In this document: piece after piece, positions 3,245 through 21,444 of the stretch
How positions within the stretch are numbered: position 1 is the stretch's first letter
Layout of the letters: each line of letters opens with the position of its first letter
NCBI GenBank assembly: GCA_946480965.1
Contig: CAMLMI010000009.1
Coordinates: 1 to 31,323 of the forward strand
Source: an uncultured Verrucomicrobiales bacterium
Lineage (GTDB): Bacteria > Verrucomicrobiota > Verrucomicrobiae > Limisphaerales > CANJSG01
Direction: 5' to 3'
Length of the DNA: 31,323 nt
Position numbers and translations under genes: made by a program
Notes under the pieces: generated by a model
What the model saw: only the letters and a program-made list of their open reading frames with translations
Databases searched by the model: none
Told to the model about the DNA's origin: nothing

Positions 3245-3898
3245 TCACTCAGCTACCACCGACGGACACAGCGCCCTCAGCTCGCACCCCGCACAATCCG
3301 GGCTCCGAGCCGAGCACCGCCGCCGCCCGTGCCAGATCAACCAGTGGCTGAACTGCGCCCAGTCTTCCTGCGGCACGAGCTTCATCAACGCCTGCTCGAT
3401 CTTCCCCGGATCGGTTTCCTTCGTCAGTCCGAGCCGTTGGCTCAGGCGGCCGACGTGCGTGTCCACCACGATGCCGACATTGATCCCGAAGGCGTTTCCC
3501 AGGACCACGTTCGCCGTCTTGCGCCCCACGCCGTCGAGCTCGATCAATTCGTCCATCGTGCACGGCACTTCGCCGCCGTGTCGTTCGATCAGCTTGCGGC
3601 AAGCGGCCTGGATGTTCTTGGACTTGTTCCGATAGAGCCCGATGCGCCGGACATCCTGTTCCAGTTCCGCCAACGGCGCGTCCGCGTAGTCCCCGGCCGA
3701 ACGATACTTTTTGAAGAGATCGGCCGTCACGATGTTGACCTGCTTGTCCGTGCACTGCGCGGAGAGGATCGTGGCGATCAGCAGCTCCAACGGGTTCGAG
3801 TGGTCCAGCTCGCAGTAGGCGTTGGGATACGCCGCCTTCAGCCCGGCGATGATCCGGGCGGCGCGCTCCAGCTTGGCGGAATGGGCTTCTCGGGGCAT
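3245..3898 (-). CDS. nth: Endonuclease III (DNA glycosylase/AP lyase)
   Basis: This protein removes oxidised pyrimidines and cleaves abasic sites in base-excision repair. From ATG 3898 (MPREAHSAKLER) it has 217 residues, close to the usual family length; an alternative TTG at 3925 would add nine residues. Visible signatures: the helix-hairpin-helix LDGVGRKTANVVLG with catalytic Lys127, catalytic Asp146 in VVDTHVGR, LLIATILSAQCTD near the N-terminus, and a complete C-terminal iron-sulphur motif C-x6-C-x2-C-x5-C (Cys195, 202, 205, 211). Nothing is missing, so it should be active. It is transcribed away from the sigma-factor gene, with about 170 bp between their starts, and towards the lipoate-ligase gene. 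Confidence 0.95.
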   Translation of the reverse strand: MPREAHSAKLERAARIIAGLKAAYPNAYCELDHSNPLELLIATILSAQCTDKQVNIVTADLFKKYRSAGDYADAPLAELEQDVRRIGLYRNKSKNIQAACRKLIERHGGEVPCTMDELIELDGVGRKTANVVLGNAFGINVGIVVDTHVGRLSQRLGLTKETDPGKIEQALMKLVPQEDWAQFSHWLIWHGRRRCSARSPDCAGCELRALCPSVVAE

Positions 3899-12367: not shown

Positions 12368-13183
12368 TCAGCCGTCACCCAGGACGCGTTTGCGCAGCAG
12401 GCGATGGTCGATGGGCACGAGCACGAGCAGCAGCAGCGCGCTCAGTCCGGCGGCGGCGGCGAGATGCCACGTGGCCTGGCCGTGGATCAGGAGCCAGCGC
12501 AGCCCTTCGGCCAGATGGTTGAGCGGATTGAGCGCGACGACGGCGTTGAGCCAAGGCACGTCCGGCATGGGGAAGTAGGTGCTGCTGGCGAAGCCGATGG
12601 GCAGGATCACCAAGAAAAACGGCAGGCCCATGTGGTCGATGGACGGCAGGATGGCCGTGAAGAGCAGGCCGACCGCCGAGAACGCCAACGCCGCGAAGAA
12701 CAGCAGGGGAACGGCGAGCGGCATCAGTTCCCAGTGGAGCTGCAACTGGCCCGCCATGCCGAAGGCCGCGAGCACCAGGCAGACGACCACCGCGTAGAAC
12801 GTCGCCATTGCCGCCGCCCACAGCGCTTCACCCCAAATGACGTGCTCCAGCCGCACTTGCGTGGTGAGCTGGCCTTCCCACGACTTCTGGTAGCGCATCC
12901 GCATGAAGGCGGAGAAGAGCGACTGGAAGAACGACGTCATGAAGGCCGCATAGGCCAGCATCCCGGGGCCGAGATACGTCAGGTAGTCCAGCGGCGCGCC
13001 GCCCCAGCTCAGGTCGCTGATCTGTCGGCCGAGTCCGAGGCCGAAGGCCAGCAACAGCACGACCGGTTCGCAGACGGGCGGCAGGAGCGCGGTGTGCCAG
13101 TTGCGCAGATGCACGCGGACGTGCCGCGCGAGCACCGCGCGGCTCTGCCATTCAAGGGCGGGAAGATAGACGGATGCGATCAT
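12368..13183 (-). CDS. ABC-2 type (NodJ-like) transporter permease
   Basis: A 271-residue integral membrane protein with about six hydrophobic segments, among them PPVCEPVVLLLAFGLGLG, the segment after YLGPGMLAYAAFMTSFFQ, ATFYAVVVCLVLAAFG, LPFFLVILPIGFASSTYF and LSALLLLVLVPI. The order of segments, the GPGMLAYAA block and the late NPLNHLAEGLRWLL block match ABC-2 exporters of the NodJ/drug or polysaccharide export type. Such permeases work as dimers with a cytoplasmic ABC ATPase, usually the next gene; here neither neighbour is an ATPase (a dipeptide-epimerase-like gene upstream, an SRPBCC gene downstream). The substrate is unknown. The upstream gap (13184-13346) has no recognisable gene or repeat. 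Confidence 0.87.
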   Translation of the reverse strand: MIASVYLPALEWQSRAVLARHVRVHLRNWHTALLPPVCEPVVLLLAFGLGLGRQISDLSWGGAPLDYLTYLGPGMLAYAAFMTSFFQSLFSAFMRMRYQKSWEGQLTTQVRLEHVIWGEALWAAAMATFYAVVVCLVLAAFGMAGQLQLHWELMPLAVPLLFFAALAFSAVGLLFTAILPSIDHMGLPFFLVILPIGFASSTYFPMPDVPWLNAVVALNPLNHLAEGLRWLLIHGQATWHLAAAAGLSALLLLVLVPIDHRLLRKRVLGDG

Positions 13184-15291: not shown

Positions 15292-15422
15292 GACGCCGTA
15301 GCGCCGACGTCCCGTCGGCCGTGTCGCAAGCGTCGCGCTTGCTAGGACGTGTTACGACGGAGGACGTCCTTGCCGACAGGATGTCGGCGACACGGCAAGC
15401 CGGAGGCTTGCGCTACGGCGTC
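15292..15422. repeat. Mosaic palindromic element (131 bp) between SDR and histidine-kinase genes
   Basis: The ends are a perfect 13-bp inverted repeat, GACGCCGTAGCGC (15292-15304) and GCGCTACGGCGTC (15410-15422). Inside are several small hairpins: CCGAC...GTCGG around 15304-15318, AAGCG...CGCTT around 15328-15340, GCCGACA...TGTCGGC around 15372-15388, and GCAAGCC...GGCTTGC around 15395-15411. The same short modules occur in both halves but in a different order. The gap 15198-15468 otherwise shows nothing I can identify beyond the start region of the kinase gene. Confidence 0.75.
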
Positions 15423-15468
15423 CAGCCCACGCTTGCACTTCGCGGTCGCCGTTCCAGTGTTTGCGCGC

Positions 15469-17208
15469 GTGAGCGACGAGCTGAAAGAACTGCGCGACCA
15501 ATACGAACGCCTGAGCCTGCTGTATCAGGTCAGCAACGTCATCCATTCCACGCTCGATCCCCAGCAGGCGCTCAAGCTCATCCTCGGCGAAGCGGTGCGC
15601 CTGATGCGCGCCAGCAGCGGCTCCGTCGTGCTGGTCAATCCCACGACCGGCTTCCTCGAGATCCAGGCGGCCATCGGCCTCCCGGACCAGGTTTCCGACC
15701 TGCGTCTGCGCGTGGGCGAAGGCGTCACTGGCTGGGTGGCGAAGTCGGGCAAGCCGGCCCGCGTGGGCGATGTCTGGGGCGACAAGCGCTACATCCCCGT
15801 GCGCGGCGAGGTTCGCTCCGAGCTGGCCGTGCCCTTCGAGGTCGGCGGCGACGTGCGCGGGGTGTTGAACGTCGATTCGGACCGCGAGAACGCCTTCAGC
15901 CAGGCCGACCAGGAGCTGCTCGAAGCCGTGGCCGTGCAGGCGGCGCGCGTGATCGCGAATACCTGGATGTATGAGCAGCTCCGCCTGAAGGCCCGGCTCT
16001 TCGAGACGCTGGTCAGCGTGAGCCGCACGATCAATTCCACGCTGAGCCTCGACGAGGCGCTCCAGGTGGTGACGCGCGAGGCGAGCCTGCTGGTGAAGGC
16101 CAAGATGTGCTCGCTGATGATGCTCGACGAGTCCGGGGAGTTCCTCGATCTGCGCGCGAACCACGGCGCGGGTCCGGCCTATCTGAACAAGCCCAGGCTC
16201 GTCGTCGGCGAGAGCATGTTGGGCATCGTGGTGCGCCGGAAGAAGCCGCTCCAGGTGGAGAACGTCCAGGTGTCCGGGCGTTACCAGAACGTGGACGTGG
16301 CCCGCACGGAGGGCCTGGTTTCGCTGCTGAGCGTGCCGCTGGTCTTCGGCGGCCAGGCCATCGGCACGTTGAACGTCTATACCGGCACGCCCCACAGCTT
16401 CTCCAACGAGGAGATCCGCATCCTCAGCGCCATGGCCGAGCTCTCCGCCGTCGCCATCGAGAAGGCGCGGCTCTACGAGCGCATCGTGGATGTGGAGGAA
16501 CAGCTCCGGCAGAACGAGAAGCTCTCCGCCGTGGGCCTGCTCGCCGCCGAGGTGGCGCACGAGATCCGGAATCCGCTCACGGTGATGAAGATGCTCTTCC
16601 ACTCGCTCGATCTGCGCTTCCCCGACGGCGATCCGCGCAACAAGGACGTGGAGATCATGGGGCAGAAGATGGACCTGCTGAACCGCATCGTGGAGCAGAT
16701 CCTCGACTTCGCCCGCAGCTCGGAGCCGCGCCTCGCCCCGGTGGACCTGAACGAATTGATCGACGACCTGGGCCTGCTCACGCGCCACAAGCTGCGCAAC
16801 CAGGGCGTGAAGCTGACGCGCGACCTGAACGACGATCTGCCGGAGATCCTCGCCGATCCCACGCAGCTGGAGCAGGCCTTCCTGAACCTCACGCTCAACG
16901 CGGTCGAGGCCATGCCGAACGGCGGCCATTTGAAGATCAGCTCCCGTCTGGCGCGGCCCCGCGCTTCGGGACCGCGCCATGTCGTCGTGGAGTTCCAGGA
17001 CACGGGCGAGGGCATGAGCGAGGAGCAGCAGAAGCGCGCCTTCACCTCGCTGCTCCAGACCACGAAGGCGCGCGGCACGGGCATCGGCCTCGCCATCGTC
17101 GGCCGCGTGGTCGAGGCGCATCGCGGCAAGGTGAAGATCAAGTCCGAGATCGGCCGCGGCACCACCATCTCCATCCAGTTGCCGGTGGACCGGAGCGAAA
17201 CCACCTGA
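15469..17208 (+). CDS. Soluble sensor histidine kinase with two GAF domains
   Basis: Start chosen at GTG 15469 (first residues (V/M)SDELKELRDQYERLSLLYQV), 579 residues; GTG 15457 is an alternative, and anything longer translates the palindromic repeat. A short coiled coil leads into GAF 1 (about 25-170, with VGEGVTGWVAKSGKPARVGD) and GAF 2 (about 180-335, with VGESMLGIVVRRKKPLQVEN). Then come a HisKA domain with phospho-acceptor His364 (AAEVAHEIRNPLTVMKM) and a HATPase domain with N box (Asn477, NLTLNAVEAMPNGG), G1 (DTGEGM) and G2 (GTGIGLAIVGRVVEAH). All kinase motifs are intact. No transmembrane helix or signal peptide is present, so it is cytoplasmic and probably senses a small molecule or redox state through GAF. 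No response regulator is in the window. The next gene starts 6 bp later, so it is co-transcribed with an Mla-like pair. Confidence 0.92.
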   Translation: MSDELKELRDQYERLSLLYQVSNVIHSTLDPQQALKLILGEAVRLMRASSGSVVLVNPTTGFLEIQAAIGLPDQVSDLRLRVGEGVTGWVAKSGKPARVGDVWGDKRYIPVRGEVRSELAVPFEVGGDVRGVLNVDSDRENAFSQADQELLEAVAVQAARVIANTWMYEQLRLKARLFETLVSVSRTINSTLSLDEALQVVTREASLLVKAKMCSLMMLDESGEFLDLRANHGAGPAYLNKPRLVVGESMLGIVVRRKKPLQVENVQVSGRYQNVDVARTEGLVSLLSVPLVFGGQAIGTLNVYTGTPHSFSNEEIRILSAMAELSAVAIEKARLYERIVDVEEQLRQNEKLSAVGLLAAEVAHEIRNPLTVMKMLFHSLDLRFPDGDPRNKDVEIMGQKMDLLNRIVEQILDFARSSEPRLAPVDLNELIDDLGLLTRHKLRNQGVKLTRDLNDDLPEILADPTQLEQAFLNLTLNAVEAMPNGGHLKISSRLARPRASGPRHVVVEFQDTGEGMSEEQQKRAFTSLLQTTKARGTGIGLAIVGRVVEAHRGKVKIKSEIGRGTTISIQLPVDRSETT

Positions 17209-17214
17209 CGCCCG

Positions 17215-17997
17215 ATGAACCAAGCCATTCCCATCTTGGAGGCGTCCGGCGTCGAGATCCCGCTGCCGGCGGCGGCGGACGTTTCCGACCAGCGGGAGAT
17301 GTTCATCGAGAACTGCCGCGTGGAGCCGGGCCAGTTCTGGGTGCTCGGCGGATTGCCGACCTCCAGCCCGAGCGCGGTGATTCCGACGCTGGCCGGGTTG
17401 GAGAAGCCGGTGACCGGCGAAGTGCGGCTGTTCGGGAACGACGTTTTCCGGTTGGGCGAAGGCGAACTGGTCGAAGTGCGCAAACGCGTCGGCGTGGTCT
17501 TCTCGGCCGGCGGACGGCTCCTGCGGAACCTGACGGTGCTGGACAACATCGCGCTGCCGCTGCGCTACCACCGCTTCATGTTCCCGGACGAGATCGAGGA
17601 CCGGGTGCGCGTGCTGGCCGCAGCGCTCGACTTGGAGCGGCATCTGGACCGCGCGGCCGTGGCGTTGTCGCCCTCCGCCCGGCAACGGGTGGCGTTGGCG
17701 CGGGCGCTGGTCCTGGAGCCGGAGATTCTCTTCCTCGACCGTCCGTTGGTGGCCGCGAACGCGGATCGGCACGAGTGGTGGCTGGACCACGTGCAGGCGC
17801 TGAACCGGGGCTTTCACGGCTTGAAGCCGATGACGGTGGTGGTGGGCACGGACCGGCTGCACGTGTGGCGCGGCGTGGCCGGGAATTTCGCCGTGGTCGA
17901 GGACCGGCGCTGGACGCATCTGGGCCGGGCCGAGGAGGCGCGGGAACATTCCGCGCTGGCCGCGCCGGATTGGACGCGGCAGAAACGGAGCAGTTGA
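17215..17997 (+). CDS. Mla/Ttg2A-type ABC ATPase homologue lacking all catalytic motifs
   Basis: The overall sequence is clearly an ABC ATPase of the MlaF kind: TGEVRLFGNDVFRL, EVRKRVGVVF, LRNLTVLDNIALPLRYH, RQRVALARALVLEPEILFLD. Every catalytic signature is altered, however. The Walker A site (about residues 45-54, GGLPTSSPSA) has no GK(S/T). The Q-loop Gln is Ser97. The LSGGQ signature is LSPSAR (151-156). The Walker B glutamate is Arg176 (LDRP). The switch His is Thr212 (VVVGTDRLH). At 260 residues the frame is full length and uninterrupted, so it is not a decaying gene but probably a non-hydrolysing (pseudo-ATPase) protein. It sits 6 bp after the kinase gene and 1 bp before an MCE-domain gene, so it may be a regulatory or scaffold subunit of a lipid-transport complex whose permease and active ATPase are encoded elsewhere. 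Confidence 0.85.
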   Translation: MNQAIPILEASGVEIPLPAAADVSDQREMFIENCRVEPGQFWVLGGLPTSSPSAVIPTLAGLEKPVTGEVRLFGNDVFRLGEGELVEVRKRVGVVFSAGGRLLRNLTVLDNIALPLRYHRFMFPDEIEDRVRVLAAALDLERHLDRAAVALSPSARQRVALARALVLEPEILFLDRPLVAANADRHEWWLDHVQALNRGFHGLKPMTVVVGTDRLHVWRGVAGNFAVVEDRRWTHLGRAEEAREHSALAAPDWTRQKRSS

Positions 17998-17998
17998 T

Positions 17999-19207
17999 AT
18001 GGCCTTGCAGGATCTGACACCGCAGTTGCGCACCCGGTTGAGCCGCGTGGAACGCATGGTCGGCGTGTTCGTGACGGTGGCGTCGCTGCTGATGCTCGCG
18101 GGCTTCGCCTACTACCTCTACCACACGGCGGAGAAGAAGGGCTGGTTCCTGGCCAAGGTCCGCTACCAGACGGGCGTGAACAGCGCGGCGGGACTGGCGG
18201 CCGGCACTCCCGTGATGCTGATGGGCAAGGTGGTGGGCAAAGTCACGAAGGTCACGGAGAACGATCCTTGGGCCTACTACGGATTGACCGTCGAGTTCGA
18301 GGTCATGCAGCCGGGCTTCGGCTACATCTGGACCGACTCGAAGGTGAAGGTGGCGTCGGGCCTCTTCGAGAGCCGCTCGCTGGAAGTCACCAAGGGCCGT
18401 GAATACTGGGCGGTGCCGACCGTGATCGGAACGGCGCGCGCCAACTACCAGAGGGTCCCACTCGAGAAACTGGAGAAGGCCTGGACGGAAGAGACCAACC
18501 GGCTCTTTGCCGCCGAGCTGGCCAAGACCGGCGCGGCCTCGATCTCCGCCGACCGGAAAGAAGTCCTCGAACAGCAGGCCCGCTACAATCTCCAGGCCTA
18601 CGCGGCCAGTCCCGAAGGCAGGGCCAACCTCTACGTCCGTTGGGACGAGAAACAGCACGACGCCCCGTTCTGGCTGGACCCGGAAGAGGCCTTGCCCGTG
18701 GCCGAGCGGGTCGAACAAATCGCCGACACGGTGGAGAAGGCGCTTCCGAGCTTCCTTGCCTTGACCAACCAGCTCACCGCCATCCTCGACAATGCCGCCA
18801 GCGCCACGGCCAAGCTGGACGATCTCCTGAGCGACGTGAAGCCGGCCGCGCAGAACCTTTCCCGCGCCTCCGAGGACATGCCGCGCTTGTCCGCGAACCT
18901 GGCGCAGATCACGCAGAACCTGACCAACGCGCAGGGCGGCTTGGGCGAGTGGGTGCTGACGGACGACTTGAAGGCGCAGATCGACCAGACCTTTGGCGGG
19001 GTCCAGAGCGTGATGGGCACGGCGAACACGAACCTGCTGACGTTGAACCAGTCGCTGGAAAACCTCTCGCAGATCACCGGCGAACTCTCCACGCAGGTCC
19101 GGGCCAACACCAATCTGCTCAGCGGCGTCTATCACCTGGTGATCGACGCGGACCAGTTGATCCAGGGGCTCAAGCAGCACTGGCTGCTGCGCTCCGCCTT
19201 CAAGTGA
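17999..19207 (+). CDS. MCE/MlaD-family lipid-transport protein
   Basis: A 402-residue protein starting 1 bp after the pseudo-ATPase stop; a GGAG about 10 nt upstream supports ATG 17999. Residues 20-42 form one membrane helix (GVFVTVASLLMLAGFAYYLY), followed by an MCE domain (about 48-125: VRYQTGVNSAAGLAAGTPVM, then GKVVGKVTKV and SGLFESRSLEVTKG). The rest is a long helical tail with many Asn/Gln/Ser heptads (LTNQLTAILDNAASATAKLD, NLSRASEDMPRLSANLAQIT), ending in HWLLRSAF. MCE proteins form hexameric rings or tubes that move phospholipids between envelope membranes with an MlaE permease and MlaF ATPase; here the neighbouring ATPase homologue is degenerate and no permease is nearby. The coding end overlaps the convergent WYL gene by 8 bp. 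Confidence 0.9.
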   Translation: MALQDLTPQLRTRLSRVERMVGVFVTVASLLMLAGFAYYLYHTAEKKGWFLAKVRYQTGVNSAAGLAAGTPVMLMGKVVGKVTKVTENDPWAYYGLTVEFEVMQPGFGYIWTDSKVKVASGLFESRSLEVTKGREYWAVPTVIGTARANYQRVPLEKLEKAWTEETNRLFAAELAKTGAASISADRKEVLEQQARYNLQAYAASPEGRANLYVRWDEKQHDAPFWLDPEEALPVAERVEQIADTVEKALPSFLALTNQLTAILDNAASATAKLDDLLSDVKPAAQNLSRASEDMPRLSANLAQITQNLTNAQGGLGEWVLTDDLKAQIDQTFGGVQSVMGTANTNLLTLNQSLENLSQITGELSTQVRANTNLLSGVYHLVIDADQLIQGLKQHWLLRSAFK

Positions 19208-20292: not shown

Positions 20293-21444
20293 TCAGCCGA
20301 CGAGCTTGGCCAGCAGCTCGTCGTTGGTCTTGTTCTTCTTCAACGCGGCCAGGAGCGTTTCCATGGCCTCGATGGGGTTCAGATCGACCATCATGCGGCG
20401 GAGCTTGCGGATGGAGTCGAGGTTCTTCGCGGCGAAGAGCTTCTCCTCCTTGCGGGTGCCGCTCTTCGGGATGTCGATGGCGGGGTAGAGGCGGCGGTCG
20501 GAGAGCTTGCGGTCGAGGATGAGCTCCATGTTGCCGGTGCCCTTGAACTCCTGGAAAATGAGCTCGTCCATGCGGCTGCCGGTATCGACGAGCGCGGTGG
20601 CGAGAATGGTGAGCGAACCGCCGCCCTCGATCTTGCGCGCGGCGGCGAACATCTTGCGGGGAATCTCCAGCGCGCGGGCATCGACACCGCCGGTCATCGT
20701 GCGGCCGGAACCGCCGTGGACGCTGTTGTAGGCGCGGGCCACGCGGGTGAGGGAGTCGAGGAGGATGAGCACGTCCTTGCCCGATTCCACCATGCGGCGG
20801 CAGCGCTCGATCATGAAACGGGAGAGGCGGACGTGGGTTTCCAGGTCCTGGTCGTTGGAGGAGGCGACGACCTCGGCCTTCACGGAGCGCTGGAAGTCGG
20901 TGACTTCCTCGGGCCGCTCGTCGATCAGCAGCACCATGACGTGGACTTCGGGATGGTTCGTGGTCACGGCGTTGGCGAGCTGCTTGAGGATCGTGGTCTT
21001 GCCGGTGCGGGGCGGCGCGACGATGAGGCCGCGGGTGCCTTTGCCGATGGGCGTGACGAGATCGATGATGCGCGTCTCCAAGATGTCCGGCGTGGTCTCG
21101 AGGGTGAACTTCTCGATCGGGTCGATCGTGGTCAGGTTCTCGAAGCGCGTGGTCTTGAGGTATTCCTGGAACGGAATGCCGTTGACGGACTCGACCGCGC
21201 GCAGCTGGGGACTGGTGCCGCGATGGGGGGGCTGGGTAATGCCGACGACCTGGCAGCCCTCGCGGAGGAAGTTGCGCTTGATGGTGTCGGGGGTGACGAA
21301 GATGTCGCTCGGCTTGGGTGCGAAATGCTGGTGCGGCGTGCGGAGGAAGCCGAAGCCCTTGTCGGAAATCTCAAGGTAGCCGGAGCCCAGGTTTTGCTGG
21401 GTCTGGCCATTGGTCGCGGGCGCGGTTTGTGGCGCGTTGCTCAT
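20293..21444 (-). CDS. rho: Transcription termination factor Rho (short form)
   Basis: Rho is the hexameric RNA helicase that ends transcription. From ATG 21444 it has 383 residues. The first 20 residues are low-complexity; then the OB/cold-shock-like RNA-binding domain begins (SGYLEISDKGFGFLRTPHQH, RNP-like GFGFLR at 30-35). The ATPase core is complete: Walker A APPRTGKTT (143-151), LLIDERPEEVTDF, Walker B LILLDSLTRVARAYN, the Q-loop region VHGGSGRTMTGGVD and the arginine-finger region MDELIFQEFKGTGNMEL. The usual N-terminal Rho_N helical domain (about 45 residues in E. coli) is missing. An in-frame stop (TAG, 21484-21486) 14 codons upstream of the start shows this is not a wrong start call. 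Its own transcript ends at an intrinsic hairpin. Confidence 0.95.
   Translation of the reverse strand: MSNAPQTAPATNGQTQQNLGSGYLEISDKGFGFLRTPHQHFAPKPSDIFVTPDTIKRNFLREGCQVVGITQPPHRGTSPQLRAVESVNGIPFQEYLKTTRFENLTTIDPIEKFTLETTPDILETRIIDLVTPIGKGTRGLIVAPPRTGKTTILKQLANAVTTNHPEVHVMVLLIDERPEEVTDFQRSVKAEVVASSNDQDLETHVRLSRFMIERCRRMVESGKDVLILLDSLTRVARAYNSVHGGSGRTMTGGVDARALEIPRKMFAAARKIEGGGSLTILATALVDTGSRMDELIFQEFKGTGNMELILDRKLSDRRLYPAIDIPKSGTRKEEKLFAAKNLDSIRKLRRMMVDLNPIEAMETLLAALKKNKTNDELLAKLVG

Follow-up and report, generated by a model that had tools for sequence, protein, structure and literature searches.

ATP is considered to power Mla-type MCE systems by way of MlaF (Ttg2A), the ATPase of the MlaFEDB phospholipid transporter. 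According to sections of a study of the Escherichia coli protein, MlaF function requires Lys47 and Glu170, so a nucleotide-binding domain (NBD) lacking these residues would need to work differently; the same sections report that MlaF binds MlaB without nucleotide turnover, and a non-hydrolysing NBD could therefore still assemble (PMC7367683). Another study counted MlaF solely where it was syntenic with further Mla genes, and calls its annotation uncertain (PMC10665443). For the Bce-type modules (BceAB-S), excerpts of a third describe a kinase proposed to sense the transporter cycle, with BceS seated in the membrane via transmembrane helices and requiring a functional transporter for activation (PMC10314905).

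Here we analysed a stretch of 31,323 nucleotides from an uncultured Verrucomicrobiales bacterium (the window), in which a gene for an ABC ATPase fold without catalytic motifs (pseudo-MlaF) is flanked by genes for a histidine kinase and for an MCE protein of the long MlaD type. On balance we favour the view that pseudo-MlaF, without hydrolysing ATP, serves an MCE lipid-transport complex as a structural or regulatory subunit, and that this complex is probably one of Verrucomicrobiota. No description of a dead MlaF was recognised from titles and abstracts in the PMC literature, a collection outside which most subscription papers and preprints lie; as far as literature searches reach, an MlaF-type pseudo-ATPase family in one clade of which a second loss, that of Walker A, took place is new.

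The pseudo-MlaF gene and its neighbours

The pseudo-MlaF gene (17215-17997, plus strand) runs from ATG to TGA without interruption and encodes 260 aa, with a GC content by codon position (0.73/0.45/0.90) resembling that of neighbouring genes. Pfam ABC_tran matched the protein at E 2.2e-15 and 57.9 bits (cut-off 25). The best three matches in a structure search were MlaF chains, with MetN tied within 1 Z, and Foldseek again placed MlaF first. The preliminary description of an intact frame with an MlaF-like ABC fold is upheld. The opposite strand is likewise open, and a wrong frame or strand was considered and rejected: two long reverse frames and one overlapping plus-strand frame are without any Pfam match, and the frame of the gene itself has homologues and coding composition. 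Assignment within the ABC ATPases was less uniform by sequence. FtsE led the NCBIfam matches at 96.8 bits, MlaF reached 61.6 bits (cut-off 441), and all of the best 25 rows fell below their own cut-offs; the best PDB match by sequence was likewise a protein other than MlaF. Residues 253-260, in the region of the C-terminal extension by which MlaF subunits are held together as a dimer, have pLDDT below 50, and 6 of the C-terminal 26 residues are invariant in the nine-member clade described below.

The MCE gene (17999-19207, plus strand) starts 1 base past the pseudo-MlaF stop and encodes a long MlaD-type protein of 402 aa (31.1 bits with Pfam MlaD, above the cut-off of 25.1), with an MlaD-like fold at residues 51-230 and no beta-barrel in its model. 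Ahead of the hydrophobic helix lies a conserved N-terminal tail (17999-18061, plus strand). Its motif QDLTPQLRTRL is exact in 112 of the 120 MCE homologues compared (P0122-P0241, best 120 of 2415), and 119 match it with no more than a single substitution; the sole exception, P0128, begins further in. Conservation of this degree is remarkable in so short a segment ahead of a membrane helix and makes the tail a candidate docking site. One MlaE query (from Binatia) returned just a 23-residue match in the window (E 0.033), PF02405 (MlaE) was absent from the 37 of 128 window ORFs scanned with Pfam, and no MlaB gene was found beside pseudo-MlaF. The lack of an MlaE hit in the window counts against placing pseudo-MlaF in an MCE complex, as do the need of E. 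coli MlaF for Lys47 and Glu170, the NCBIfam preference for FtsE, the best PDB sequence match and the structural tie with MetN. Elsewhere in the window, the minus strand encodes an ABC-2 type permease (12368-13183; PF01061, E 3e-19; NodJ/DrrB-like), for which no cognate ATPase gene was found within the window, and a Rho factor of 383 aa (20293-21444), which Rho models match from about position 45, such that its usual N-terminus seems short or missing.

Upstream, the kinase gene (15469-17208, plus strand) ends 6 bases before the pseudo-MlaF start and encodes GAF, GAF, HisKA and HATPase domains by Pfam. As listed, its ORF (15349-17208) begins about 40 codons upstream of the start of homologues; since these are mostly 574-577 aa long, GTG at 15469, giving 579 aa, is the likelier start. 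The phosphoacceptor motif HEIRNPL is present in 119 and GTGLGL in 94 of 120 kinase homologues (P0242-P0361, best 120 of 5800).

Loss of catalytic motifs

The motif register was set by alignment with seven chosen canonical ABC ATPases from fetched loci, which by likeness we take to be two MlaF, one MceG-type, three FtsE and one LolD-type protein. All five catalytic features were found in each of the seven controls and none in the window protein (P0001), from which the D-loop is lost too. In the degenerate Walker A (residues 46-53; 17350-17373, plus strand, as are all motifs here) the lysine is replaced by Pro52 and the preceding glycine by Ser51. The Q-loop glutamine is Ser97 (17503-17505), and within the degenerate signature (residues 151-155; 17665-17679) SGG has become Ser-Pro-Ser (152-154). 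Walker B retains Asp175, next to which the catalytic glutamate is Arg176 (17740-17742), and in the D-loop (residues 180-182; 17752-17760) Ala-Ala-Asn stands for GLD or NLD. These comparisons bear out the losses first proposed for Walker A, Q-loop, signature and catalytic glutamate. The switch histidine is lost as had been described, at a position one residue further on: the threonine of the canonical 'TH' aligns with Thr212, so the histidine corresponds to Asp213 (17851-17853) and not to Thr212. An active MlaF was rejected for this gene, its motifs being replaced.

A protein search with pseudo-MlaF scored 7998 candidates, of which 3066 passed; the counts that follow refer to the best 120 of these 3066 and favour sequences resembling the query. 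The Walker A position holds lysine in 110 rows, proline in nine and arginine in one, and the Walker B aspartate is present in all 120. The SGG signature was found in 0 of 120. The Q-loop glutamine is retained in five rows (P0035, P0048, P0058, P0073 and P0088), the catalytic glutamate in 12 (P0011, P0027, P0031, P0032, P0039, P0044, P0045, P0060, P0062, P0069, P0077 and P0114) and the switch histidine in eight. Scored row by row, ten homologues have none of the five features, 85 have one and 25 have two, the maximum. With the same positions hit across these homologues, the degenerate motifs are a family trait, beyond chance; orthologues with intact motifs, which under the check proposed at the outset would have spoken for a decaying gene, were not seen among these 120 rows. 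One source names these relatives ordinary MlaF ATPase subunits. Judging from the P-loop, nucleotide binding may still be possible in the relatives that keep Walker A, and has probably been lost in the window's clade.

ABC NBDs function in pairs, and some such pairs are asymmetric, with one of the two sites degenerate. Pseudo-MlaF might share a permease with a true MlaF and so render the NBD dimer asymmetric, an arrangement to which the Walker A lysine in 110 of the 120 rows would be suited. In composite sites, the canonical signature of the degenerate subunit completes the ATP site of its partner. The signature is degenerate in every one of the 120 rows, so a classic active heterodimer is disfavoured, and no second ABC ATPase or true MlaF was found within the window. 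We regard such pairing as improbable.

Relatives were also sought in assembled sequences. Genome contigs scanned with the single pseudo-MlaF sequence gave 17 loci, none of them from Verrucomicrobiota by title. Viral contigs contained 15 loci matching the pseudo-MlaF alignment and none matching the alignment of the kinase or that of the MCE protein, and plasmid and phage searches yielded no useful relative. Motifs were checked by loose patterns in 26 of the 32 loci (11 of the 17 genomic and all 15 viral ones), six further Amycolatopsis loci being left out. All five features were matched in 21 of the 26. Of the incomplete loci, L012 has an LSRG signature and, like L033, no Q match; L016 has no match to the switch histidine, and in L019 and L028 Walker A is absent from the frame examined. 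Other ABC proteins may therefore miss single features, as in these 5 of 26 loci; none of the 26 misses all.

Constraint, linkage and distribution

A tree was built by a quick method with seven outgroup rows, several flagged long branches and no canonical verrucomicrobial MlaF, so active copies may be nested within the family. The 120 family rows separate from the outgroup in this tree (branch value 100), and nine rows including that of the window, all with the Walker A lysine replaced by proline, form one clade on one side of a branch (branch value 100, stem 0.89), placed at a fork without resolution at the family base. Losses within the family are graded, as the 12 glutamate holders and the five glutamine holders are different rows. 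Given that gradation, that base and the sampling of the tree, any order is provisional; the simplest is that hydrolysis motifs were lost first and the P-loop later in one clade.

The long stem would fit a decaying gene under little selection, and protein databases under-sample broken copies. Against decay, all nine clade proteins are full length (259-263 aa), and Pro52, Arg176 and Asp213 are fixed in 9 of 9. The clade alignment has 94 invariant columns of 263, where about 17 would be expected if a single rate applied throughout; in the absence of constraint, some 722 substitutions would have introduced about 25 stops, yet no stop was seen, a count to be read in the light of broken copies being hidden from a protein database. 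Identity to the window protein also parallels that of the MCE neighbour in linked relatives: 88% for pseudo-MlaF and 89% for MCE on a contig of 3391 bases, and 62% and 56% on one of 3973. The alignment indicates that the protein is under constraint, and we consider decay very improbable. Conservation is highest in residues 93-122, of which 22 of 30 are invariant, and in residues 151-165, with 13 of 15. ABC ATPases contact their permease around the Q-loop, which residues 93-122 follow; this suggests that docking has been retained. The preliminary description thus stands as regards an intact, constrained and degenerate gene in a tight run with kinase and MCE genes; its picture of five losses in one gene gives way to degeneration across the 120 family rows, with an additional loss of Walker A in the window's clade.

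Gene linkage among relatives was read from equal longest-contig sizes, with values for 119 of 120 rows each for pseudo-MlaF, MCE protein and kinase. Pseudo-MlaF and MCE relatives are linked in this way on five contigs (23822, 3391, 3973, 13944 and 18230). Contig 18230, and contig 13944 through P0040 and P0080, involve pseudo-MlaF rows with Walker A retained; on 13944, P0186 is paired with P0080 from the same source and with P0040 from a different one. In an offset control, size matching gave 0.66, 0.78 and 1.02 matches per comparison, and 0.03, 0.05 and 0.08 at >=9 kb. Size matches at 3688, 2418 and 5444 joined rows from different sources and were taken as chance. Organism-named homologues in the best-120 lists, each of which favours sequences resembling its query, belong to Verrucomicrobiota in 5 of 5 cases for pseudo-MlaF, 11 of 13 for MCE and 7 of 7 for the kinase, where Limisphaerales and Roseimicrobium rows were counted by us as Verrucomicrobiota; the two other MCE homologues (best 120 of 2415) are from Paceibacterota and Dongiaceae.

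From adjacency we infer a functional link between kinase and pseudo-MlaF. A dead ATPase and an MCE protein that no longer transport might signal to this kinase what state the envelope lipids are in. The 6-base spacing and retained phosphoacceptor motif fit such a sensor, as does flux sensing in the parts of PMC10314905 that describe BceAB-S, and outside the window a kinase relative is joined to a pseudo-MlaF relative on contig 16542 (P0007 with P0245) and to an MCE relative on contig 9815 (P0124 with P0243). However, these are two coincidences of contig size, both in close relatives, and no response regulator was found among the window frames scanned. Moreover, the kinase is conserved far outside the pseudo-MlaF clade (mostly 70-79% identity over about 93%, best 120 of 5800), and may therefore have its own job; conservation this strong might point to a core function for the kinase itself. 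A sensor that has given up transport is, in our judgement, a rather unlikely explanation.

Comparison with known systems

In the favoured account of a non-hydrolysing subunit, an MlaF-type NBD without hydrolysis would assemble as a structural or regulatory part of the MCE complex, and the adjacent kinase might read its state, the weakest step. More speculatively, a widespread verrucomicrobial MCE system could use a pseudo-ATPase NBD as a conformational reporter, read by a kinase in this lineage and without nucleotide binding in the window's clade; we consider this reading rather unlikely. Because one source names an MlaF-type family lacking the catalytic motifs as ordinary MlaF, the presence of the gene does not equal the presence of the motor. 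The family constitutes a natural test of what NBDs do in an MCE complex besides hydrolysis, and is perhaps also informative on how the state of envelope lipids is communicated to a kinase.

Like MlaF, pseudo-MlaF adjoins an MCE gene; it differs from MlaF in five catalytic features and the D-loop, and from the MlaFEDB arrangement in having a kinase gene upstream and neither an MlaE nor an MlaB gene found adjacent. The MCE protein is long, as in MlaEFD systems with a long MlaD such as that of Veillonella parvula. Its model agrees with the absence of a beta-barrel from MlaD of the PVC group given in part of PMC10665443, the section of which on this group makes no mention of a dead MlaF. Unlike heterodimeric ABC transporters with one degenerate site, the 120 family rows compared have not kept the canonical signature. 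With the Bce-type modules, as far as portions of PMC10314905 describe them, the locus has in common that an ABC-type subunit might signal together with a histidine kinase; here, by contrast, the ABC protein is catalytically dead, the kinase domains are just GAF, HisKA and HATPase, and an MCE protein is present.
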